16,786 nucleotides of DNA, from the NCBI GenBank assembly GCA_026692885.1, contig JAPLNJ010001007.1:1-16786 (forward strand), given 5' to 3'. Position numbers and translations under genes: made by a program. Positions within the stretch are counted from its first letter, which is position 1; the number at the start of each line of letters is the position of its first letter. Source of the DNA: Planctomycetota bacterium (GTDB taxonomy: Bacteria > Planctomycetota > Planctomycetia > Pirellulales > Pirellulaceae). Positions 1,151-14,602 of the stretch are shown piece after piece. The notes under the pieces are model-generated. The model saw only the letters and a program-made list of their open reading frames with translations. It was not told the DNA's origin and searched no databases.

Positions 1151-1303
1151 ATGGGAAGCATCATCGGGCTCGTGGTAGGCTGCATCTACTTTGGCTCAAA
1201 ACTGAGTAAGATCGGTTACAACGGAGTTCTGTGGTTCATTGCTCATGCGCCTCCTGCGGTTCCAAGCACTCGACAAGATTGGATCCGAAAAACCCTTGAC
1301 TGA
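1151..1303 (+). CDS. Small hydrophobic ORF, probably a truncated membrane protein
   Basis: A 50-codon frame starts at ATG 1151, six bases after a strong Shine-Dalgarno-like GGGGAGGTG. The first 28 residues are hydrophobic (MGSIIGLVVGCIYFGSKLSK then IGYNGVLW) and could form one membrane segment. From about residue 29 the frame runs antisense to the ParA-like fragment at 1236-1391, and the composition turns into proline and charged residues. The likely reading is that only the N-terminal part is original and the rest is a fusion into unrelated DNA. The family is not recognised; the pattern vaguely recalls small planctomycete membrane proteins. It may not be translated at all. Confidence 0.35.
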   Translation: MGSIIGLVVGCIYFGSKLSKIGYNGVLWFIAHAPPAVPSTRQDWIRKTLD

Positions 1304-1391
1304 GCGAACCCTGCGGGTCGGCATCCACCAGCAGCACGCGCTCGCCCGCGTGAGCAAAGGCGCCGGCCAAGTGGAAGCAGATGGAACTGGG
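1236..1391 (-). pseudogene. ParA/Soj-type ATPase fragment
   Basis: On the minus strand, bases 1391 to 1236 read SSICFHLAGAFAHAGERVLL then VDADPQGSLSQGFFGSNLVE, ending in a stop. This is the classic ParA/Soj start: the end of the deviant Walker A (K-S/T-S/T), the following helix, and the V-D-A-D-P-Q-G-S motif. The glycine-rich KGGxGK part upstream is missing; the sequence before 1391 belongs to the space after the helicase gene. The later ATPase motifs are missing too. About 50 of the roughly 250 residues of the family remain, so it is a relic. Plasmid or chromosome partition genes are common neighbours on mobile DNA, so this may be debris of a former element. It is not FlhG: the DADPQGS motif is of the Soj type. 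Confidence 0.8.
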
Positions 1392-1409
1392 GGTTATTGG
1401 CACTGGCTC

Positions 1410-4118
1410 TTACCACGCTTCCGACAGTCTCTCGACGATGTCCTTTCTGGCCAGCACGCGTGAGCAGAGTTCCCACCGATTCTGGTCAGGATCAATGGTC
1501 TCCTTGTACCGGAGTTCGAAGACGTCACGGGCCTTCTGCCGCAGGTGGATGTACTGGTCCAGGGTGGCCTCAAGTTGTTCCACACTCTCGATCCAATCGT
1601 CCTCGATGGTGTCCGGCAGGCCGCCGAAGATGTCAAACTTGTCTTTCAGGCGGCGCGAGAGCACCCGGTAAACCTGTTCGTCCTGCGTGTCGTGGTACAC
1701 GAGGTTCAGCATATCGACGGTCCGCCTGGCTTGACCGAACCGCTTGATGCGCCCCAGACGTTGCTCCAACCGCGACGGGTTCCAGGGCAAGTCGACGTTG
1801 ATTAGGGTCCCCAGCGTCTGTAGGTTCAGGCCCTCGCACGCGGCATCGGTGGCCACCACCAGTCGGATTTCGCGTTTCTTTACAGCCGTCTTGATATCCT
1901 CCCGCTCGACAGCTGCGAAGTCCTGCCCGCGGAACAGCCCGCTCTTGCCCAACCCGGCATACACGGCAATCGGCTCGCCTGGAATCGCCTGCGCCAGCTC
2001 CGAGCCCATCCAGTACGCGGTGTCGTAGTACTGACTGAAAATGATGCACCCGTGTTCCAGCCACGTCTTTCCCTCCGAGCGATGCTCGGCGAGAAAGTAC
2101 TGAACAGCAGCCAGTTTCGGGTCGCGTGCTTCCGGACGGGACAGCTCTTCCACGATGGTCCGAAGGTGGCTGGCCTCGTCGGGCGTAATGGCGTTGAGCA
2201 GAGTCTCGATGGTCTTGGTGTCGTCTTCCTCTTCACCGGGACTTTCACGCCGCAGCATCCTTTCGGCCGTGGCGCGGCCCGAGGCGAAGCTGGAGCAGAT
2301 GCGTTGCAGGAGTAGGGTCTTCATAAACCCGGCAGCCTTGGTGCGCTGTTGCAGTAGCGTGGTAAATGCTTCGGCTGCTTGATAAGCGAGATCGAAAGGA
2401 TGATTCGTCAGCAGCCCCAAACCGCTGAAACCGATGCCGGGATACGTGGTGAGCGGCGCGTCGGGGTCGGGGTGGATCTCCACGCCCACTTTTTCCAGTA
2501 GCCCGGCCTCTTCCAGCGTCTGCCGCCGGCGTAAGACGGTGTGGCGGACCAGCGGGTTGTGTTCTTGGAAGAAGCCGGGGGCAAGGGTTTGCCCGATCGC
2601 TTGTTGCTCGAGGAAACCCAGGGAGCCGTAGCCCCGGTCCGTGAAGAAGACCTGATCCGGCAGCCCCAACTGCAGACGCAGCGCAGAGAACAACGCGTCT
2701 TCGCAGCCGGCGGGCAACGGATTGCGCAGCCACTCCCAGGCCTCCCGGTCGTCCGCCGGTAGCTCTTCGCCCTTCACCAGGGGCAAAGCCTGCTCCCAGT
2801 CCGTCCAGCGCCCAAACCACTCCCGGCCCAAAACGAAATCAGCGCCTGCGTTGAGGATCCGCAGGAGATCCCACAACTCGTGGACCTCGGTCTGGATAGG
2901 CGTCGCGGTGCCCAGTAACAGGTTCTTCGTGCGTGGACCGATCCTGAGCATGAAGTCGAGCAGGTGATTGGGCTCGTGTCGTTTCTCACCGAGGCCACCG
3001 CGCCGTCGGGCCTTGTGGGCTTCGTCCAGGACCACGGTCCCGAACTTGCGATCCAGCAAGTGCTGCCGCTCCTCGGAGTCGTGAACGATGAGGCCCGTGG
3101 AGACAATTGCGATACGGAAGGGACAGCGGACGATGTCTTCGGGCCAGCGGGTCTTGATGATGTGACCATGGGGATCGATCCACACCTTCCGTGCCGACGA
3201 CCAGACAGCGCTCGGGATCCCCAGCCGGTCATTCAATTCCACCTGCCATTGCAGGGTCAGCGTAGACGGGCAGAGGATCAGCACCGGCCCATCGTCCAAG
3301 AGCACCGCGAGCATGGCGCTGGCGGCCAGCGACAGCGTTTTGCCCACGCCGACCTCGTCGGCCAGCAGCAAACGCGCCCGACCGTAGGTCTCCCGATGCT
3401 GCAGGAACATGGTCACAAACGACCGCTGCCAGGGCTGGAGCTGCTCCCCGCCGCGGTAGATGGGACTCTCCGCCAGCGCGGCGGCCGGAAGTTCGTGCGG
3501 CTGGGCCTCCGCGAAACGAATCTCGACACGTTCCGCGACGCGGTGGATCTCTTCGATAATCGCGTCGGGCAGCGGAAAGGCATCCTTCCAGAGAGCGTCG
3601 AACTCGTCTTCAACCCAGGCCACGCCCTCGGGCGAAGTGTCCTCCCAGAGGATCTCGTAGTTCTCGGCGAAGGCACTCTTGGTCTCGTTGATCGAGCCGA
3701 GAAAGCAGGTCTTCGTGCCATCCGCAGCTTCGATGACGCCGGCCTTGCCGTGAATGAACACCCGGTCCTTGGGTACGACGCGAATTTCGACCCGACCGCT
3801 GGTCAGCAGATCGTGGAGCCGCCGGTAGCGTTCGCGATGCAACAGCGCCTCGACTTCGGGGGTCGCTTCGTTCCAGCGGTCCTTGAGGGCCGTCTCGCGG
3901 ACATGTTTCGAGACGGCCACATCCGCCGCATCCAACTCGCTGTTGCAGACCACCTGCACCTTGGGAATCCCCGCAATCTCCTCGCCCACGAGTTCGAAAA
4001 TCGAACTACGGAAGTAACCCGCGATGCGCCGGTAGGACTTGGCGCCTTGCAGCTTGGTGCTCAGGAAAGCGTGGTCCAGCCGCTGACGGCGGGAGGAGAA
4101 GCGGTTGAGGTTGTCGGA
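1410..4118 (-). CDS. PLD-nuclease/SNF2-family helicase of the defence cassette (5' end lost)
   Basis: Protein of about 900 residues, counted from the first family-like residues (DNLNRFSSRRQRLDHAFL, from 4115). Residues ~20-200 form a phospholipase-D-like nuclease domain with an HKD-type motif: HGKAGVIE at 122-129, then GSINETK at 140-146. An SNF2/SF2 helicase follows, with Walker A DEVGVGKT at 253-260, VVLDEAHKAR at 361-370 and LGTATPIQ near 401-408. The C-terminal lobe has FSQYYDTAYW, ATDAACEGLNLQ, and motif VI as RLEQRLGRIKRFGQ. The C-terminus is complete (stop at 1410-1412). The N-terminus is abnormal. Upstream of 4118 the open frame continues only as the out-of-frame shadow of the methylase remnant, and no ATG, GTG or TTG lies near the first homologous codon. 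The first in-frame ATG lies within the helicase domain (residue ~235). The gene therefore lost its start in the deletion that removed the methylase C-terminus. Role by family: nuclease/translocase effector of a methylase-linked DNA-defence system. Confidence 0.9.
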   Translation of the reverse strand, partial: SDNLNRFSSRRQRLDHAFLSTKLQGAKSYRRIAGYFRSSIFELVGEEIAGIPKVQVVCNSELDAADVAVSKHVRETALKDRWNEATPEVEALLHRERYRRLHDLLTSGRVEIRVVPKDRVFIHGKAGVIEAADGTKTCFLGSINETKSAFAENYEILWEDTSPEGVAWVEDEFDALWKDAFPLPDAIIEEIHRVAERVEIRFAEAQPHELPAAALAESPIYRGGEQLQPWQRSFVTMFLQHRETYGRARLLLADEVGVGKTLSLAASAMLAVLLDDGPVLILCPSTLTLQWQVELNDRLGIPSAVWSSARKVWIDPHGHIIKTRWPEDIVRCPFRIAIVSTGLIVHDSEERQHLLDRKFGTVVLDEAHKARRRGGLGEKRHEPNHLLDFMLRIGPRTKNLLLGTATPIQTEVHELWDLLRILNAGADFVLGREWFGRWTDWEQALPLVKGEELPADDREAWEWLRNPLPAGCEDALFSALRLQLGLPDQVFFTDRGYGSLGFLEQQAIGQTLAPGFFQEHNPLVRHTVLRRRQTLEEAGLLEKVGVEIHPDPDAPLTTYPGIGFSGLGLLTNHPFDLAYQAAEAFTTLLQQRTKAAGFMKTLLLQRICSSFASGRATAERMLRRESPGEEEDDTKTIETLLNAITPDEASHLRTIVEELSRPEARDPKLAAVQYFLAEHRSEGKTWLEHGCIIFSQYYDTAYWMGSELAQAIPGEPIAVYAGLGKSGLFRGQDFAAVEREDIKTAVKKREIRLVVATDAACEGLNLQTLGTLINVDLPWNPSRLEQRLGRIKRFGQARRTVDMLNLVYHDTQDEQVYRVLSRRLKDKFDIFGGLPDTIEDDWIESVEQLEATLDQYIHLRQKARDVFELRYKETIDPDQNRWELCSRVLARKDIVERLSEAW

Positions 4119-5137
4119 TCCGGTACGAGTTCTGCCACCACGCGATAACCCTTGCTCACAATTAGGGTCGGCAATAACGGCACCATCCAGCCCGTCTGCG
4201 GGCAGCATGTTTCCACGCAATAGAGAAACACTTTGGCCCGCCAGCCCGCGCCGTCCGTCTCGACGCCGAGTCGATCTATCTCTGACTGCACACGACGAAC
4301 CAGTTCCTGCTGATCCCTCGCCAGCCTCTCGCGGCTCTCCATGGAGCCACCGATGATGTTGAAGGCGCCCCAGGTGAGCATGCAGGCTACCGGATTCAGA
4401 TCGGAGGCATAGACGTCGCAGCCGAGTCGGGCGGCCTCGAAGGCAATCTGCCCAGAGCCACAAAACGTATCGCCGAGCCGCGGGCGGTGGCCGAATCGCA
4501 TGATGCCCAACTGCTCGACCAACTCCGGAAACGAGTGGGCACTCGTGCCCAGATGGGTGTTGGCCTCATCCCAGACGTGGTCATGGACGGTGGCGGCGAC
4601 CTCTTCGGCTCGCTTGGCATTGTCCACTCGTTCACGGTAGGGGATCTCCGGAAGCAACCTCGCTTCCAGCCGGCGGCGCTCCAGTTCCGAAACGTCCTCA
4701 CGCCAGGCCAACTTCACGTCCTCGTACTCCGGCTGCGACCAGTCCCAAGGGGAAGGGGGAGGAATAAAGGATGAAGGCTGAACGGTGAAGTAGTCAGCGG
4801 GGCGGGCGATCGCGAGCCTGGCGAGAATCTCCTTCGGTTTGGAACGTCGCGGCCAACGAGCGACAAATGACTCGGCATCCATCGCCATCAACTTCTCGAA
4901 GATTTCCAGGTCACGCTTGGGGTCGTTCGTGGCCGGGAGTAGGCAGCCGAGAATGCAGGCTTTGTTCAAGATCAGCGGTTTACGCCCCTTCCAGTAGCTG
5001 CCCAAAGCCGTGAGCGTCTTGCCATGCACCGCCATCTGCTCCTTATACGCCTCGGCCGAGAGCTTCTGCACGGGCAACAGGCGTTCGATGAGGGCGGGCG
5101 CATCCCTGAGGGAAAACGGTGTAACGGCGTTGCTCAT
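4061..5137 (-). pseudogene. DUF1156/COG1743-type DNA methylase, C-terminally truncated
   Basis: Starts at ATG 5137 (MSNAVTPFSLRDAPALIERL); a TTG twelve bases upstream is the only alternative. Residues 1-340 read as the N-terminal part of an adenine-specific methylase of the DUF1156 (COG1743, Zn-ribbon) kind. AdoMet-binding motif I is FCGSGQIAFEAA at 225-236, followed by the acidic DLNP at 246-249. The first half of a zinc ribbon is seen (YCVETCCP, 307-313), then TGWMVPLLPTLIVSKG. Homology ends at ELVPDP (~341), and 17 frame-shifted residues follow to a stop at 4061. Full-length relatives are, from memory, about 900-1000 residues, so roughly two thirds is gone, including where the (D/N)PPY catalytic motif IV should be. 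Methylation activity is not credible. The remnant overlaps the helicase sequence by about 55 bases in another frame, placing the deletion joint at about 4113-4123. Confidence 0.85.
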
Positions 5138-5201
5138 GACTGATACCAACCCATTCCTGGTTATGCCACGCCACTTCGCGGCGACTTTGCGGTGGATTCT
5201 C

Positions 5202-5393
5202 GCCCCAAAGGGGCCAAATTCGATAGCCCAGGGCGCAGCCCTGGGTTGTCAGTCGCCGTTGGAACCGCAGCCCTGAAAGGGCGAAACAACGGCACCGAGC
5301 ACTTCGTGTCTCGCCCTTTCAGGGCTACTGCGGTTTTCGGTTTCCGCAACCCAGGGCTACGCCCTGGGCTATCGAATTTGGCCCCTTTGGGGC
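5202..5393. repeat. 192-bp nested palindromic element
   Basis: Bases 5202-5248 are the reverse complement of 5347-5393 at 46 of 47 positions. Each arm contains smaller palindromes: GCCCCAAAGGGGC at the tip and AGCCCAGGGC-GCAGCCCTGGG further in. A second inverted pair lies inside (5264-5284 against 5311-5334, core CCCTGAAAGGGCGA), differing by a two-base insertion. The whole unit can fold into one long branched hairpin. It sits 64 bases upstream of the methylase start. Chance ORFs through it give glycine/proline-rich peptides that should not be annotated. No transposase is present, so it fits a non-autonomous repeat of the MITE/REP class. Confidence 0.85.
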
Positions 5394-5552
5394 AAGGATT
5401 TCATGACGTAGCTCACCTTGATCGTCCAAACCCGAACGGGGTTTCACAAGGGGTGGTGCTGGCCGCGAGCCGGATGTGGAATCCCGCCGGGACCGCCCCG
5501 CGACTTCCTAACGCATTCTGCAGCAACCGCTTGCATCTTTCGTGGACGCGGG

Positions 5553-5581
5553 TTGACGTTTCCGTGCCCAAGTCCGATAAT
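5553..5581 (+). promoter_or_regulatory. Sigma-70-type promoter-like sequence for the small gene at 5609
   Basis: TTGACG at 5553-5558 and GATAAT at 5576-5581 are separated by exactly 17 bases. They match five of six consensus positions at each hexamer. Transcription would start near 5588 and give a leader of about 20 bases containing the RBS AAGGAAGG (5598-5605). Confidence 0.6.
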
Positions 5582-5608
5582 CCGAGACGTAACCAGAAAG
5601 GAAGGCCG

Positions 5609-5863
5609 GTGGCGAAGCATCCCTTGAAGACGTATGACTTCACGCTTGTCTTGGCGAATCTCGCCGAACTGACCGACATTCAGGCCAATGCCCTCTTCCG
5701 CGCCGGTTGCGATGATGCTACGCCAGTCAGCCGAGACAGTCGCGTCTTGCTGCATTTCGCACGGGAAGCGGATTCCCTGGAACACGCCATCCGTTCGGCC
5801 ATTGCGGACGTAGCTCGCAGCGGCTTGCGCGCCGCCCACGTCGAAATGGAATGCCCGGTCTGA
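5609..5863 (+). CDS. Small acidic 'AGCDD' protein, antitoxin/regulator-like
   Basis: An 84-residue protein from GTG 5609, chosen because AAGGAAGG lies just upstream and a promoter-like sequence with ideal spacing lies before that. The larger open frame upstream only reads through the palindromic element. Key features are YDFTLVLANLAELTD, ANALFRAGCDDATP, HFAREADSLEHAIRSAIADV and a short end HVEMECPV. I recognise this pattern from small planctomycete proteins in which an N-terminal (AL)(F/Y)xAGCDD domain often precedes a C-terminal HTH; that link is from memory. No HTH follows here. The frame stops 22 bases before the palindromic element at 5886, so the C-terminus may have been lost. It is the only intact-looking plus-strand gene inside the minus-strand cassette, lying between DUF3780 and the methylase, and looks like an insertion into the operon. 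Function unknown. Confidence 0.6.
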   Translation: MAKHPLKTYDFTLVLANLAELTDIQANALFRAGCDDATPVSRDSRVLLHFAREADSLEHAIRSAIADVARSGLRAAHVEMECPV

Positions 5864-5885
5864 TCGCGTTCCCAACCTCTGGGTG

Positions 5886-6135
5886 CTAGCACCAAACGGT
5901 TTTTTGCGGTGGGAGTGGCAAGAATGAGGTTTAGTGTTGTCGCATGGACGGGGCTTGCCGCTAGGGCTCAGACGTACAGAATTCAAAATTGGCGGTTTGG
6001 CGACTTTGCCAAGTCAGTGTGGTTTGTCCGCTAATTTTGAATTCTGTACGTCTGAGCCCTGCTTGGGGCCCGGCACTGCGGAACAGTAAAATCTCATTCC
6101 TTACGCGTCAGGACCAAGAAACCGTTTGGTGCTAG
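5886..6135. repeat. 250-bp MITE-like element with terminal inverted repeats
   Basis: The ends are 21-base inverted repeats matching at 20 positions (CTAGCACCAAACGGTTT at 5886-5902, reverse complement at 6119-6135). Inside is a second, perfect 28-bp inverted repeat (5963-5990 against 6033-6060, core CAGACGTACAGAATTC). The sequence between outer and inner repeats is also similar on both sides (AGAATGAGGTTT against GGAATGAGATTT), so the whole unit is one long imperfect palindrome. CTAG occurs at both tips and again at the edge of the inner repeat (5961), which may mean two nested elements or CTAG/TA target use. No protein is encoded. The right tip supplies the stop codon of the DUF3780 gene. Confidence 0.85.
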
Positions 6136-6698
6136 TCATTGAACAAAGGAAGCGCGATGAAGTCGGCCTGACGCGGCCTTCGTTTTCGCTTGGTTGCCGG
6201 TTTCTCACCATCGGACAGCGCAAGAAACAAGGCCCGCCGCCAGCCGCGCTGCGTGTCCTCGGGCAAGCCGGCTTCGGCTACCGTCATCGCGAACAGCCAC
6301 CAGCGTTCCTCGGGCCGGAGGGCCGCCCACTTGCTGCAGATCACGGGGAGTTGCTCCTCGTTGGCCGTCTCGGCCGCCCAGGCGAGCACGCACAATTCCT
6401 TGCCCAGCAACCGATCGACCAGATTGGTGCCGGTATGCCAGCGGCCGGTCGTAACCTTGGCCGCCTTCAGCCGATCATTGAACTCGCGCCGCGCGATGTC
6501 GGCGATTGCGGACCAGTTCGGACGTTTCAGCAGTGCCCGCTCCTCGTCGCGTGGGACACCGCCCTCCTGGCCGCGGTAACCGTAGTCCTCGACGATCACG
6601 ACCGACGCAGCCCGTGAGGCCGAGATCTCGACGCGGAAGACATGGGCACCGAACTTGTCCGGTGCGCCGAAGTCCACGGTCTGTGGCTTGTCGCTCAT
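6132..6698 (-). CDS. DUF3780-family protein of the defence cassette
   Basis: A 188-residue soluble protein. Its ATG (6698-6696) overlaps the stop of the DUF499 gene as ATGA, so the two are translationally coupled. Recognisable family stretches are FGAPDKFGAHVFRVEI, VIVEDYGYRGQEGGVPRDEE, REFNDRLKAAKVTTGRWHTG and LVDRLLGKELCVLAWAAE. The C-terminus is basic (KRKRRPRQADFIALPLFND), which would suit nucleic-acid contact. The family has no known enzymatic activity that I can name; its constant pairing with DUF499 suggests a complex partner. The stop codon TAG (6132-6134) lies inside the terminal repeat of the MITE-like element at 5886-6135, so the last codons may differ from the ancestral gene. The family call is from recognised pattern, without a profile search. 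Confidence 0.85.
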   Translation of the reverse strand: MSDKPQTVDFGAPDKFGAHVFRVEISASRAASVVIVEDYGYRGQEGGVPRDEERALLKRPNWSAIADIARREFNDRLKAAKVTTGRWHTGTNLVDRLLGKELCVLAWAAETANEEQLPVICSKWAALRPEERWWLFAMTVAEAGLPEDTQRGWRRALFLALSDGEKPATKRKRRPRQADFIALPLFND

Positions 6699-9600
6699 TG
6701 CTCCACTTCCCCCGCCGCCAACTCGATGCCAAGCTTCTCGGCAAAGTCCTTCAGATCGTGACCGGAGGCGAAGTGGGCCTTGCGGAACGTCATCGTGATC
6801 GGAGTGTCCGGGTGGAATTTTTCCAGCACCTTGGCCAACAGGGCCTGAATGAATGCCGCGTCGACCGCGATGTCACCGACGTTGATACCGATCATCTGGT
6901 TGCCTTGGCCCACCATCAGCACGAGGCCCTCGAACGTGGCCGACTTCTCGGCGGCCTGCTGCAACCCCTCAAAGGTTTTGGCGCGCGAGTCGAGCTTGCG
7001 GCCCGAACGGGAGACCAGGCGGCCAGGCTTCACGTCATCGATTTGAACGCCTTTTTTCCCTTTGGCTGGGAAGCGAAACTCCGCCTTGCCCTCCAGGCAC
7101 TCGGCTTCGCTGAAGACCCGCAACACCACATCTTCGTTGCCGATGGCGAACGGCTTCTCGTACGGCGTTCCCTCGCGTGGCTCGCTGCCGTCCAGCGTGT
7201 AGCGCAGGATGCCTTGGGGCGCGACGAACAACTCGATGGTCCGTTTGCCGCCTTTCTCGGTCAGCTTATTGCGCAGGACCAACTTATTGGACCAGGTCAC
7301 TGGCTCGCCCGTTTCGTATTGGCCGGACGGGTCCATGACCAGGAAATTCACCCGCAAAGCGGAGGTGGTGAGCACTTGGTCCTTGAGCTGCACACTGGAT
7401 TCGGACACCGGACCATCCTCGGTGTAGTACACCCGAGGCGCAGGACCGGCGTTCTGCGGGTTGACATGCAGACGCACGGTTCCGGCATCGTCCGGTTCGC
7501 TGTCGGGGGTGACCTGGGCTGAGGTTTTCTTCTTCTTGGGCTTCTTGGTGACGTAACCATTGCCAAGGTCCTCCCAAAGCCCCCGATTGCAGGCAATCGA
7601 CTTCAGCGTGTCCAGCCCCTTGGGCGGAAGCCAAGGCATACCGGCCTGTTCGGCGTACCGGTCGGCCGCGTCGGACCAGCGCGTCTCGTCCTGGTTCTCC
7701 GGCCAGAGCAGATCCTGGGCCTTGTCGCGAACGGGATCGAAGTCCTTGTCGATGTCCAGATACAGCTTCAGCGGATTGGAGGTCAGCGTTTTTTGGACCT
7801 GTTCCTCGCCGTTGAAGGGCTGGGTGGCCTCGCGGGTCATATCCAGCGGCTTGGGGACCAGTTGGGCGGACCGGCCGGAGCGTTGAATGGGAAAGAGGAC
7901 CTTGTCGAACAGGTTGAGGATCGTGGAGGTGAAGTCATGTTCGTAGGTCTGTTGCTTCTGTTCGAGTTCCTCGCGCTGGGGGTGGCCTTGCGGGATGCGA
8001 CCGTCGGCCTTTTGTGCTGCGTAGAGTTGGCGGGCGGCTCTTTCGACGCTGCCCATCGCGGTCTTGTCACCGGTGAGGACGCACAGGTTGTTCTTCTGGC
8101 TGAGGCCGTCGAAGAACTTCTGGACTTCCTCGGGGGGAATTTTGGAATCGGGACTGACGATCAGCAGCACTCGTCCTTTGCGCACGCGATCTGCCACGTC
8201 CTCTAATTTAGGGAGCGGAAGAACGTCTTCGTAGCAGGTCTTGCGCGTGGGCTTGAACATCTTGCGCATGCGGTCGCGGATCAGGTCGTCGACTTGGTTT
8301 TCGGGGGCATCGTGGGCGAGGCTGCGCAGAAGCTTGGTCAGATTCTCCTGGCGATCGAAGTAGTAACGCCCCTCCGGCGTATGGTGGAGATACCAGGCGA
8401 CCTTTTCCAATTCCTCGAAGGCCGCGAGGAACTCCGACGGTTCGCGCAGGGGGGAGGTGAGGCACTCGACCAGTTCCTCCCGCGTCAGGCCCTTCACCGC
8501 GTTGACGGCCGTCGAGAGGCTGGCGGTGAGCAGTAACGAGCCGACCTGGGTGGCGGCCTCCTTGCCGGTCTGCAGGTCGATGACCTGGGCGTGTGCGGAC
8601 GCCTGGGCATCCCAGAGATCCTTGGCGATGACATCGCGCATGCCGGAAATCTCGGTCAGCTTGTCACGCACCTCGGGAATCGCCAGGTCAAAATGCTGCG
8701 GCCCCATCAGGAACACGTCATTGGCCGGCCGCTCCCAGACGGACTTGAGCAAGCGGGACACAAGCTCGATCAAACCGCGAGTCTGCTTGAACTGCTCGTT
8801 CTCCTTGAACAGCGCGATGACGTTCTTGAGCCGCGGGTGGAAGGGGTAGGCAGCGGCGACTTCATCGGCAATCGCCTCGGCGCCACGGTTGGCCGTCTTG
8901 GACTTGGCCGCCTCTTCCAACTTACGGCCGAACGCCTCGGCAATGTCCTCGATCTCCGCCTTGTCGGGCAGACTCTTGAAGAGCCGCTTGCGCAAGATGT
9001 CGTAGATCTCGTTGGCGGCCAGGTCGACCGGTGTGATGTTGCGCTCCTGCCGCCCGAGTTCAGCACGGGCATCTTCCAGCGCGCGGTTGATAAGCTTGGT
9101 GCCGGTGTCGTAGGTTGCGGCCAGGTCGGAGACGACCACGCAGACGTTCGATTTCTTGCCGGCGGCCGTCAGCATGTTCGCGAACGCACGGGTGGCGATG
9201 TCGGCCACCGTGCCGTTGCCGACTTTTTGCGTGTCCAAGTAGTGGAAATACGGCGGCATTTCATCCAACAGGATGAGGATGGGCCGGTCGCCGTCGAACA
9301 ACTTGAGCCAGTCCCTTTCGTCCGGTGCCTTGGGGCCGCTGGTCCAGAACGCTTTGAACTGGTCACCCTTGCCGAGTTGACTGGCAATTTCGCCCCAGAA
9401 GAAGTGATCCGGGTTGTTTCGCCCGTTGAAGGCCACAATCTCGGCGGTCTTGAACGACGAGGCATGCAGCATGCCGCCGCAGTACTTCTTGCGCAGTCCG
9501 GCGTCCTTAGCCAGCAGGCCGAATCCGACCAGCAGATGGGTCTTGCCTCCACCCATGGACTGTTTGAGGTGAAACACGGCCTGGCTGGAGAATCCGGCGA

Positions 9601-9736
9601 GCCGTGCGAGGCCCTCCGAGATCAACTGCTGCATGCCCTGGGTGATGTGCGTCTTGTCGAAGAAGGCGGCACCATCGCCCTCGCTGGTAATCAATTCATC
9701 AAGCTGTTCAATCTGGTCGCTGAGTTTGATGGTCAG
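6695..9736 (-). CDS. DUF499-family P-loop ATPase (BrxC/PglY-like role)
   Basis: A ~1000-residue AAA-type ATPase and the largest gene of the cassette. Numbering from TTG 9694: Walker A is SMGGGKTHLL (46-55), preceded by GDGAAFFDKTHITQGM, and Walker B is PILILLDEMPPYF (138-150). VCVVVSDLAATYDTGTK follows. A later VLLIVSPDSKIPP segment is followed by a low-complexity KKPKKKKTS linker. Near residues 825-860 the stretch RYTLDGSEPREGTPYEKPF resembles the chitobiase-C-terminal/FN3-like fold. Start choice: TTG 9694 is the only standard start, but the upstream in-frame residues TIKLSDQIEQLDEL look like part of the family. A CTG at 9736 overlaps the TGA of the upstream regulator as CTGA, so I extend to 9736 (1013 residues). 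The 3' end overlaps DUF3780. Role by family: NTP-driven core of methylase-linked phage exclusion. Confidence 0.88.
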   Translation of the reverse strand: MTIKLSDQIEQLDELITSEGDGAAFFDKTHITQGMQQLISEGLARLAGFSSQAVFHLKQSMGGGKTHLLVGFGLLAKDAGLRKKYCGGMLHASSFKTAEIVAFNGRNNPDHFFWGEIASQLGKGDQFKAFWTSGPKAPDERDWLKLFDGDRPILILLDEMPPYFHYLDTQKVGNGTVADIATRAFANMLTAAGKKSNVCVVVSDLAATYDTGTKLINRALEDARAELGRQERNITPVDLAANEIYDILRKRLFKSLPDKAEIEDIAEAFGRKLEEAAKSKTANRGAEAIADEVAAAYPFHPRLKNVIALFKENEQFKQTRGLIELVSRLLKSVWERPANDVFLMGPQHFDLAIPEVRDKLTEISGMRDVIAKDLWDAQASAHAQVIDLQTGKEAATQVGSLLLTASLSTAVNAVKGLTREELVECLTSPLREPSEFLAAFEELEKVAWYLHHTPEGRYYFDRQENLTKLLRSLAHDAPENQVDDLIRDRMRKMFKPTRKTCYEDVLPLPKLEDVADRVRKGRVLLIVSPDSKIPPEEVQKFFDGLSQKNNLCVLTGDKTAMGSVERAARQLYAAQKADGRIPQGHPQREELEQKQQTYEHDFTSTILNLFDKVLFPIQRSGRSAQLVPKPLDMTREATQPFNGEEQVQKTLTSNPLKLYLDIDKDFDPVRDKAQDLLWPENQDETRWSDAADRYAEQAGMPWLPPKGLDTLKSIACNRGLWEDLGNGYVTKKPKKKKTSAQVTPDSEPDDAGTVRLHVNPQNAGPAPRVYYTEDGPVSESSVQLKDQVLTTSALRVNFLVMDPSGQYETGEPVTWSNKLVLRNKLTEKGGKRTIELFVAPQGILRYTLDGSEPREGTPYEKPFAIGNEDVVLRVFSEAECLEGKAEFRFPAKGKKGVQIDDVKPGRLVSRSGRKLDSRAKTFEGLQQAAEKSATFEGLVLMVGQGNQMIGINVGDIAVDAAFIQALLAKVLEKFHPDTPITMTFRKAHFASGHDLKDFAEKLGIELAAGEVEQ

Positions 9737-10384
9737 GCTTCCGGCCAGCGGACCAGCAGGACGCCAGGCGCTCGTAGGGTTTGTTGGCGGATTCTGCCTG
9801 ACGTGAGGTGGAAGGCGTCCCCAATCTGCGCGAACGACTGGATGTTAGCGGTGCAGTTGGTGCGCCCGGATCCGTTCCCCCGCTGCTCGCCAGCACAGCT
9901 CCCAGTACACTGGATCGTCGGACTCTGCACCGTACCCATGCGCGCGTTCGCGAACGGCCTGCCACGGGCCGTCCTCGACTGACTCGTCGGCAGACGCCGA
10001 CGGCGGAGGTACTGGGGACAGCGACGAGTCCTGGAGGCGATGTTCCGGGCGGACCGAGGACGCGGCGTTTGTTGGCCGAGAGTCAAACTCAGAGCTGAGT
10101 TGATCGGAGGCCGACGCCGGGCGATGGTGAGGCGAATCTCGAACAGTTTGGACGGCTCGTTCCAAAACCGTTAGAAGCCCGCGCAGCCGTGTCGGCCCCA
10201 CGCTCCTGGCGTTGACCAACTCCGCCAGGGAACCGTCCAGGATTGTACGCAAGCTCTTGCCAAGCAACCTTGAGGGAAGCTGCCGGTCGGTCGGCAGTGT
10301 CCAGGTCATCAGGGAGGCGTCCACGAGCGGGTTCTGTCGGCAGCTCTCGAAGAGTGTCTGGATGGTCGCGAACTTGCCAGACAC
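9733..10384 (-). pseudogene. Regulator with alpha-CTD-like and sigma-4-like HTH domains, one-base frameshift
   Basis: The first frame (GTG 10384 to TAA at 9845-9847) gives 179 residues. Residues ~40-78 (RLLGKSLRTILDGSLAEL, then SVGPTRLRGLLTVLERA) look like a helix-hairpin-helix of the RNA-polymerase alpha C-terminal type. The middle is a low-complexity serine/proline linker. Directly past the stop, another frame continues with IQSFAQIGDAFHLTSGRIRQ, a good match to the sigma-70 region 4 HTH (xxxIGxxxxLTxxRIRQ). It ends at TGA 9733-9735, which overlaps the CTG start of the ATPase as CTGA. Removing one base near 9847 joins both halves into a 216-residue protein. As written, the HTH is cut off. 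This may be a true mutation, a sequencing or assembly error, or frameshifting. Promoter-proximal placement suggests it controls the cassette. Confidence 0.65.
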
Positions 10385-10517: not shown

Positions 10518-10895
10518 TCAATGCCAGATCGAAATCCGTTCGACGATATTCCGTGTTACCCGGCGTTGACGACGGTCGTAGAGCCGCGTGGTACGCGGGT
10601 CCGAGTGGCCGGCCAAGTGCTGCACGTCCTCCAGCGGTACACCTTGGGCGAGGCCATGGGCATTGTCCAGCTGGCACGCGAGTTCCGCCCGCTTCGATCT
10701 TCCCGACGCGACCATGCGCCGTACCGCCGCGGCAGCGGTGAATAGGGGCGAGATGTTCACGGTTTCCGAGAGAGCTTGGAGCTGGCCGGTCTCCAGCTGA
10801 CTGGTGAAGCTGAGCAGATGACCGAAGAGGTGAGGACCAGGGCTGTCTTCGGCGAGCGGATGCCAAGGGCCGTGGCGGTGCCTGGTTCCCGACAC
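10518..10895 (-). pseudogene. Tyrosine recombinase (phage-type integrase) C-terminal fragment
   Basis: The end of this frame (10643 to 10518) reads GVPLEDVQHLAGHSDPRTTR then LYDRRQRRVTRNIVERISI. This is the C-terminal catalytic part of a tyrosine recombinase: LAGHxxxxTTxxY with the box II histidine and the nucleophilic tyrosine, then DRR. The conserved HxxR region before it and the first catalytic arginine are absent. The upstream part of the frame (to 10895) has no recognisable recombinase motifs and may be unrelated DNA. It is therefore a relic, unable to catalyse integration. It lies directly between the last backbone gene (stop at 10899) and the accessory cassette, where the integrase of a genomic island would be expected. 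No attachment-site repeat could be identified by eye. Confidence 0.75.
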
Positions 10896-13057: not shown

Positions 13058-13363
13058 ACAATCCTCCGTGATTGGCATGCCGACGAGAGGCCACCCGGGT
13101 GGGTCGTACTCTCGATAGCCCGCTTCCTGCTGGGCTATGGCCTGGTACATATTCTGTTTCTGTGCGCTGACTTCCGCCTCTCCGCCTACCCGCTAAACGT
13201 TCTGGCTTTCCCTCGATTCCAAGTCAGGGCTGTCACCCCAAGGTCTGACACCCCCGGAATCACCCCGTCAAACTTCCTGTAGTTACTCCAGTTTAACTTG
13301 ACTAGGCATACAGGCGCTCTGTGACTTTATCGGCGACCGGACGGGGCCGGGTTTAGTAAAAAT
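13058..13363 (-). other. Long leader between flhF and fliA
   Basis: Between the flhF stop (13364) and the fliA start lie 306 bases with no gene I can support. They contain a 12-bp perfect palindrome CCACCCGGGTGG (13091-13102) about 35 bases upstream of fliA. A direct-repeat pair resembling GGTGTCAGACC / GGTGACAGCCC lies near 13225-13255, and a sigma-28-like promoter near the flhF end. In many flagellar operons flhG (a MinD-like ATPase) sits at this position; no trace of it is visible. Confidence 0.5.
13327..13355 (-). promoter_or_regulatory. Sigma-28-like promoter upstream of fliA
   Basis: On the minus strand, TAAA (13355-13352) is followed after 17 bases by GCCGATAA (13334-13327). The second box is identical to the consensus FliA -10 element. 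The usual spacing from TAAA is about 15, so this is two bases too long, and the rest of the -35 box (GTTT) is absent. If used, FliA would act on its own gene through a leader of about 260 bases. Confidence 0.35.
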
Positions 13364-14602
13364 CTAGCAAGCTTTGACTCCCAGGAGCAAACGCGTCAAC
13401 TTGCGGTGGTCCGCAGGTTCGATGTCCTCCGGTACATTCTGGCCCGTGGTGACGTAACTGAGCGGCCACCGAGTACTCCGTGCCAAGGCTAGGAGCTGAC
13501 CGAGAGTGGTCGCCTCGTCCAGCTTGGTCAGCAGTAGCGCGGTGACCCCCGCCGGGGCGAATTGAGCGGCCGTGTTCCGCAGGTACGCGGCACTGGCGAC
13601 CACGCTGAGCACGAGCTGGACTTCGTCGGCCTGAGCTTCGGCCAGCGTGGACTTAAGTTCCTGGATCTTCATGGCGTCTTGCGGGCTACGCCCGGCCGTA
13701 TCCACCAGGATCAGCTCCAGGCCGGAGAGCCGCTCCACGGCAGCCCGCACTTCCCGAGGGGTCGAGACGACCTCCAGCGGCACCTCGAGGATGTCCGCGT
13801 AGCTGCGCAGTTGTTCGACGGCGGCCAGGCGGTAGGTGTCCGTCGTAATCAAGCCCACACGACGTTGTTCCCGGAGCCGGTAGTAGGCCGCCAGTTTAGC
13901 GACCGTGGTCGTCTTGCCGACGCCGGTCGGCCCCACGAGCGCGACGATCCGTGTCTGGGCAGGCCGGACTTGCAGGGGACCGCTGACCCGCAGCTCCCGC
14001 TCGATCAAGCGGGCCACGCGGGCCTTCAGGAGCACCGGATCGAGCAGGTCACGCGGGGAGGCCGCCTGGCGGACCTGGTCGACCAACTCCCAGGCCAGCT
14101 CCTCCTCAACTTCCGCTTGCAGCAATTCCCTGTACACCGGTTGCAGGATCTCGGGCAAGTCGTGACGCCGCGGACGCGCGGCCTCGCAGGACAGGTCTTC
14201 GACCCACGAATGGGGCGTGCCAGGTTCTTGTTTCAGGGACTCGCGAAGCTGCCTGCGATAATCCGTCGCATGGGCAGGTGGCAGATCGGTCGCCTCGTCC
14301 GCCTCGCCACGCCCGCTCAGCCGGGGCTGCAGCGGGGCTCCAGCGCCGGGCTCCGGGGCCGCAGCGGCCCATTGCGGAAAGCGGCTGGGAACTTGGATTT
14401 CCGACGAGGCCACGACTTCGATCTGCCGCGCGCCGGTCAGCCACTGGAACAGCCCTCGGCGGACCTCGCGCGTCTGCAGGACGGCGGCGTCGGGGCCGAG
14501 CGTGCGGCGAATCTCCTGCAACGCCTCAGGCATCGAACTGGCGCGAAACGTGCGGATGTGCAGATCCTCCACCGTGGGGCTTAAGGAAGTCGATATCGTC
14601 AT
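13364..14602 (-). CDS. flhF: Flagellar biosynthesis SRP-type GTPase FlhF
   Basis: A 412-residue SRP-family GTPase that helps place and number flagella at the membrane. The N-terminal DLHIRTFRASSMPEALQEIR and LGPDAAVLQTREVRRG (13-50) are the typical FlhF start. A variable linker (70-145) precedes the NG domain, with P-loop GPTGVGKTTTVAKLA at 224-238, TTDTYRLAAVEQLRSY at 253-268, DTAGRS at 301-306 and TKLDE at 359-363. The C-terminal G5-like segment is YVTTGQNVPEDI. Start choice: ATG 14602 gives the conserved N-terminus with a ten-residue extension. A TTG at 14659 overlaps the flhA stop as TTGA and is possible but adds unconserved residues. Stop TAG at 13364-13366. It is next to flhA as in most flagellated bacteria. 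Confidence 0.94.
   Translation of the reverse strand: MTISTSLSPTVEDLHIRTFRASSMPEALQEIRRTLGPDAAVLQTREVRRGLFQWLTGARQIEVVASSEIQVPSRFPQWAAAAPEPGAGAPLQPRLSGRGEADEATDLPPAHATDYRRQLRESLKQEPGTPHSWVEDLSCEAARPRRHDLPEILQPVYRELLQAEVEEELAWELVDQVRQAASPRDLLDPVLLKARVARLIERELRVSGPLQVRPAQTRIVALVGPTGVGKTTTVAKLAAYYRLREQRRVGLITTDTYRLAAVEQLRSYADILEVPLEVVSTPREVRAAVERLSGLELILVDTAGRSPQDAMKIQELKSTLAEAQADEVQLVLSVVASAAYLRNTAAQFAPAGVTALLLTKLDEATTLGQLLALARSTRWPLSYVTTGQNVPEDIEPADHRKLTRLLLGVKAC

Follow-up and report, generated by a model that had tools for sequence, protein, structure and literature searches.

The 16,786-nucleotide stretch of contig JAPLNJ010001007.1 analysed here (the window) carries on its minus strand an array of genes for a DUF499 ATPase, a DUF3780 protein, the N-terminus of a DUF1156 methylase and a PLD-SNF2 helicase. 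This array is the already catalogued four-gene Type-2 BREX-related (BR) anti-phage system, not a new combination of genes. The window copy is a broken example of the operon, probably a remnant: the DUF499, methylase and PLD-helicase genes, three of the four, are damaged, and DUF3780 is intact. The locus is likely a horizontally acquired, inactivated copy of the system in a planctomycete.

The four-gene operon and its lesions

An earlier note on this DNA had described an ATPase, a small protein, a methylase N-terminus and a PLD-helicase lying collinear on one strand. Profile scans (PADLOC on eight open reading frames (ORFs), Pfam and NCBIfam on ten) confirm this layout, and they assign the proteins to dedicated anti-phage families, not to unrelated ones. 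All four match the NCBIfam families NF042961-NF042964, each of which is named anti-phage, and likewise the PADLOC anti-phage models PDLC02189-PDLC02193. All but the methylase score above the curated NCBIfam cut-offs (three of four). The DUF499 protein reaches 1456.3 bits against NF042962 (cut-off 1200, profile positions 29-1025) and 76.8 bits against PF04465 (Pfam cut-off 23). The PLD-helicase reaches 1241.6 bits against NF042964 (cut-off 1100), with Pfam matches to PLDc_2 (49.6 vs. 27) and SNF2-rel_dom (51.6 vs. 24.9). The methylase, with 453.0 bits over positions 1-309 of the 960 in the profile, stays below the NF042963 cut-off of 1000 because it is truncated. The predicted structure of the DUF3780 protein (pLDDT 87.1) has four main strands and five helices, the composition also reported by the authors of PMC12839542; a fold relative was sought for this model, and none was recognisable.

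The gene order of the operon recurs among 84 related loci, made up of the best 80 of 324 confirmed DUF3780 loci (genome contigs) together with two viral, one plasmid and one phage locus, so the co-occurrence proposed in the earlier note is conserved. DUF499 is present in 81 of the 84 (in the phage as a C-terminal piece only), the methylase in 77 and the PLD-helicase in 55. Where genes are missing, little sequence mostly remains past the last match. Conservation is not strict, however: L045, L051, L072 and L077 have more than 5 kb past the last match and no PLD-helicase, and in L059 the methylase is on the opposite strand. PglZ (PF08665), whose presence near such genes the earlier note had left as a question, occurs in 16 of 42 genomes carrying DUF3780 (14 above cut-off; the 43rd, the genome of L015, is not in this count). 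It lies on the DUF3780 contig in none of the 42, with the contigs being partial, so that distant linkage is possible.

Features of the window and of related loci (aa, amino acids)
Feature	Position	Strand	Basis or remark
PLD-SNF2 helicase coding sequence, from codon 2	1410-4118 (ORF 1410-4463)	-	own ATG missing
PLD catalytic motif HGKAGVIE...GSIN	3687-3752	-	
Probable deletion junction	4110-4118	-	TCCGACAAC fits methylase side (..DPT) and PLD-helicase codons 2-4
DUF1156 methylase fragment	4118-5137 (ORF 4061-5149)	-	about residues 1-340 of relatives of about 1000 aa
Stretch of 982 bp between DUF3780 and methylase ORF	5150-6131	none	carries hairpin elements
Hairpin arms in the 982-bp stretch	5196-5248 / 5347-5399		
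Terminal repeats	5886-5906 / 6115-6135		inner arms 5963-5995 / 6028-6060
DUF3780 gene, intact	6132-6698	-	NF042961 236.1 bits, cut-off 200; PF12635 243.3 vs. 27
DUF499 (BrxC-like AAA+) ATPase gene	6695-9741	-	profile and relatives; tool ORF 6695-9694 from TTG 9694
ORF labelled 'regulator' in the earlier note	9845-10384	-	not part of the system
C-terminal tyrosine-recombinase fragment, XerC-like debris	10518-10895	-	PF00589 17.5 bits, below cut-off 27.1
ParA-like N-terminal fragment GERVLLVDADPQGSLSQGFF	1239-1409	-	by eye
DarT-DarG at methylase/PLD-helicase boundary	L002, L003, L015, L018, L020, L079; e.g. L002:13485-14228, L003:9437-10519		
DUF4062 + HATPase_c_4 protein at the same boundary	L001:8868-10589; also L005, L006, L010, L014, L019, L038, L060		

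The methylase and the PLD-helicase meet at the main lesion. Aligned to seven relatives with full methylase frames of 1006-1169 aa, the window methylase stops at residue 343-348 in six and at 359 in L018, and the PLD-helicase homology starts at window residue 112-119 in six of seven relatives and at 102 in L001. The end of the one and the start of the other nearly coincide, in different frames; upstream of codon ~116, the PLD-helicase ORF is out-of-frame methylase DNA. Codon 2 (TCC) of the PLD-helicase gene is kept at the junction and its ATG is lost, the only in-frame ATG upstream in the open frame, at 4208, lying within methylase DNA. The match of TCCGACAAC to both sides is what would be expected of a deletion between short repeats.

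A complete DUF1156 N6-adenine methylase, which is a feature of the Type-2 BR system, is not found in the window. The fragment keeps motif I (DTFCGSG), after the start of which about 117 residues remain. The DPPY-type motif ([DNS]PP[YFW]) was sought in it and is lost; this motif is present in all 55 relatives with a methylase frame of at least 900 aa and, in the 54 with an identified motif I, sits 298-404 residues past it. The PLD motif of the helicase gene corresponds to HxKx4E in 53 of 55 relatives and to HxKx4D in the other two.

The DUF499 gene has lost its beginning. Its homology starts at about 9736-9741, the conserved N-terminus of some 15 codons and the start codon are gone, and the frame up to SLTIKLSDQ holds unrelated sequence, with no in-frame ATG, GTG or TTG between the stop at 9847 and TTG 9694. 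A TVRDAC-type N-terminus, absent from the window protein, is present in 66 of the 68 relatives whose sequence reaches the DUF499 start (65 by motif, L051 by eye; not in L019 and L071).

A further break separates DUF3780 from the methylase. The gap between these genes is below 200 bp in 41 of 55 relatives vs. 982 bp in the window, and the extra DNA is read as an insertion that split the operon. Elements resembling miniature inverted-repeat transposable elements, with hairpins or terminal inverted repeats, were seen at 5196-5399, 5886-6135 and 751-836, one of them inside helicase debris. In related loci the same gap may hold genes: a DUF1016/YhcG PDDEXK nuclease in L014, L019 and L024 (Pfam-checked in L019 only) and, judged by eye, a PIN-like gene in L015, L029 and L037.

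According to the published inference, intact systems would act in a restriction-modification (RM)-like manner. The DUF1156 N6-adenine methylase would mark self DNA, the BrxC-like DUF499 ATPase would assemble a scanning complex, DUF3780 would serve as an accessory reader-type subunit that helps to read the marks, and the PLD nuclease fused to the SNF2 translocase would cut unmarked DNA. In the window, one deletion probably removed the catalytic portion of the methylase together with the start codon of the PLD-helicase and any cargo that lay between them, so that marking and cutting would have been crippled together; the DUF499 start would have been lost in a second event, and repeat-bearing DNA would have split the operon. 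We infer that a joint loss of modification and restriction would spare the host, as an RM-like system requires. Since the DUF499, DUF3780 and PLD-helicase frames contain no internal stops and keep a coding-type GC content by codon position, the damage seems to be recent or local.

Judged from sequence, the host is a planctomycete, as indicated by FlhA with FlhF and FliA following. The window FlhA is 59-60% identical to its counterparts in three genomes and 55% in a fourth, and it matches 175 of 294 genomes of the phylum of L035 (Planctomycetota); FlhF and FliA follow FlhA in all four planctomycete relatives. DUF3780 matches were found in five of these 294 genomes (search centre included), two of them strongly. 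L035, L061 and L070, the planctomycete copies, stand apart from the window protein in a PLD-helicase tree.

Weighing the alternatives

Several points weigh against an inactivated, horizontally acquired copy. Working proteins, too, would have frames that stay open across some 2,090 codons. The DUF499 of L019 also lacks the usual N-terminus, so the N-terminal loss in the window is not unique. The position of the window in the tree is weak (no starred set), and the case for horizontal transfer therefore rests on separation from the three planctomycete copies. Finally, the evidence comes from one 16.8-kb contig, so the junctions could be assembly errors.

An operon that is intact in the organism, with breaks introduced by misassembly of the metagenomic contig, is rather unlikely. 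It would account for the open, well-conserved frames that flank each junction, and the main junction has a GATC site (4117), though the window has 106 such sites. On the other hand, three separate lesions and the 982-bp repeat-bearing stretch would all need to be artefacts, further gene debris is present in the flanks, and another decayed copy is known in a Pseudanabaena genome (L045).

A reduced working system is much harder to credit. In such a system, translation of the PLD-helicase would begin at the in-frame ATG at 4208 and add a 30-residue foreign leader, and the protein would act with DUF499 and DUF3780, with no methylation; the PLD motif and the helicase domains are indeed kept. However, if an RM-like model holds, the host would be at risk from an active nuclease next to a methylase that lacks the DPPY-type motif, the DUF499 frame has no usable start before TTG 9694, and 982 bp interrupt the operon. 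The most improbable reading of all is an incomplete BREX type 3 or DISARM system, as the PADLOC matches of the helicase domain to BrxHI/BrxHII and DrmD models are partial and far weaker than that to PLD_Helicase (94.9 and 147.1 vs. 1491.7 bits), PADLOC lists no PglZ, BrxA or BrxC for the other seven ORFs or among the best 25 of 52 families for the helicase, and PglZ shares no contig with DUF3780 in the genomes counted above.

Flanks, related loci and cargo at the gene boundary

The 'regulator' ORF, which the earlier note had counted as a member of the cassette, does not belong to it. It has no match in Pfam, PADLOC, NCBIfam or PHROGs, tblastn found it in none of the 84 related loci, and of 222 candidates in a protein database search a single one was a homologue (76% identity, 58% of the length covered). 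Its neighbours are the tyrosine-recombinase fragment and genes for a tRNA nucleotidyltransferase/poly(A) polymerase and a sigma factor, followed by FlhF and FlhA; the polymerase gene and the 'regulator' were sought in the four planctomycete FlhA stretches and were not found. The recombinase and ParA debris said to flank the cassette stands in part: the XerC-like match is below the Pfam cut-off, and the other fragment was recognised by eye and is presumably of the ParA family. In scrambled surroundings at 287-907 on the plus strand lies an IGHMBP2/AAA_11 helicase fragment (AAA_11 52.4 bits over 35 residues). The FlhF-FliA gap is about 0.2 kb in the window (13150-13364) and in L112 vs. about 1.5-1.8 kb in three of the four relatives (L109-L112); a gene, perhaps FlhG, may be missing there in the window.

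Annotated four-gene copies of the operon were found on a plasmid of the environmental Halomonas sp. KO116 and on an E. coli chromosome; the KO116 copy and the betaproteobacterial locus L001 are among the intact relatives. A stretch over the DUF499 end and DUF3780 matches 17 of 5426 E. coli genomes, and DUF3780 matches 20 of 72,556 plasmid records and 1 of 50,697 phage records. In Proteus phage vB_PvuS_Pm34, gp5 and gp4 (L084:7389-8474), by the lysis genes, correspond to the last ~175 DUF499 residues and a short DUF3780; this piece is 92% DNA-identical to E. coli chromosomes bearing the operon and is a captured fragment or a decoy. What is left of the operon in Pseudanabaena (L045:9965-13001) is a methylase remnant plus a DUF3780 to which a DUF499 scrap, judged by eye, is joined. 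L072:9989-10513 is a lone second DUF3780 from a Nitrospira genome that also carries a fuller copy (L046).

The boundary between the methylase and the PLD-helicase was surveyed in the 55 related loci that have both genes in order. The interval is below 200 bp in 28, holds a DUF4062-HATPase protein in eight and DarT with DarG in six, and contains other genes or spacer in 13. One DarT, one DarG-type macro domain and one DUF4062 protein were confirmed by Pfam, and the remainder were assigned by BLAST clustering; in L025 the clustering also picked out a DarG-like ORF, which there lies downstream of the operon. On the PLD-helicase tree (52 rows; four loci with frames of at most 850 aa, all of class 'other', were left out), DarTG has a single origin with support of 97/96. 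DUF4062 needs six changes, at least four of them forced by well supported branches, and is weakly clustered (35 of 500 shuffles gave as low a number). It is conceivable, if doubtful, that guard modules have a fixed docking site at this boundary, with DarT-DarG held in one clade and DUF4062-HATPase repeatedly gained or lost. Such cargo would react when modification and restriction become uncoupled, and a deletion across the boundary, like that in the window, would offer a safe route of loss, removing marker, guard and cutter start together. A parallel is known from a type I RM island of E. coli, where DarTG2 lies between hsdS and hsdR (PMC12255303). The 2026 BR survey (PMC12839542) has no words beginning with DarT or DarG in its main text.

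Comparison with known systems

The logic shared with DISARM, as the earlier note put it, holds only at the level of the helicase domain. DISARM has an SNF2 helicase domain and a PLD nuclease in common with the window, whereas the window match to DrmD is 177.5 bits vs. a cut-off of 610, and Pfam detects no DUF1998 (DrmB) in the ten ORFs.

The suggested resemblance to BREX type 3 is sound insofar as the ATPase, methylase and helicase are of homologous types (PMC12839542). It fails for the ATPase family: BrxC is assigned to DUF6079 and not to DUF499 (PMC12839542), and in the window ATPase no DUF6079 is detected by Pfam, with PADLOC matching only DUF499 and HmaC models. The window also differs in its PLD fusion and DUF3780. 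As the earlier note stated, no PglZ, BrxA or DUF1998 is listed in the window scans; for PglZ this covers the eight ORFs scanned by PADLOC (for the helicase, the best 25 of 52 families) and the ten by Pfam and NCBIfam.

Hma, a relative described in the PADLOC paper (Payne 2021; PMC8565338) and counted among BR systems by PMC12839542, shares the logic of helicase, methylase and DUF499-type ATPase. It is described as a three-gene system and is therefore without DUF3780. The PADLOC matches of the window to Hma are distant (HmaC 170.8, HmaA 111.7 and HmaB 42.1 bits), and assignment to Hma at the family level was rejected, the Hma models scoring below the Type-2 models by more than 1000 bits for the ATPase and helicase and by more than 400 bits for the methylase fragment.

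The distinct BREX-related module proposed in the earlier note, with the nuclease fused to the helicase and DUF3780 as a fixed component, proves real and already published as the Type-2 BR system. A 2020 paper (PMC7641849) had already pointed out an operon of DUF499, methylase and SWI2/SNF2 genes with a PLDc or PD-(D/E)XK nuclease. Rakesh & Krishnan (Nucleic Acids Research, January 2026; PMC12839542) described the system from 1120 taxa, of which 1090 have DUF3780, 921 the HKD-helicase fusion and 590 two FnIII-like domains in DUF499. Both the system with its components and its kinship to BREX are published, and NCBIfam names its families anti-phage, so the window adds little as a defence module. 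The useful results are independent support for PglZ not belonging to the system, a plain illustration of how such an operon decays, and the finding of cargo such as DarT-DarG at the methylase/effector boundary, which goes unmentioned in the main text of the 2026 survey. The window shares with the Type-2 BR system the DUF499 ATPase, a standalone DUF3780, the DUF1156 N6-methylase, an N-terminal HKD (PLD) nuclease fused to a Swi2/Snf2 helicase, an Fn3-type DUF499 segment and the lack of PglZ. The published DUF499 feature is two tandem FnIII-like domains ahead of the C-terminus, whereas the window protein has one Fn3-type stretch (residues 818-861; CHB_HEX_C_1 28 vs. 22 and Fn3_assoc 23.5 vs. 23 by Pfam). 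A C-terminal RRM fold in DUF499 is a further feature of the Type-2 BR system. Compared with intact relatives, the window copy is set apart by its truncated methylase, lost start codons and split operon.

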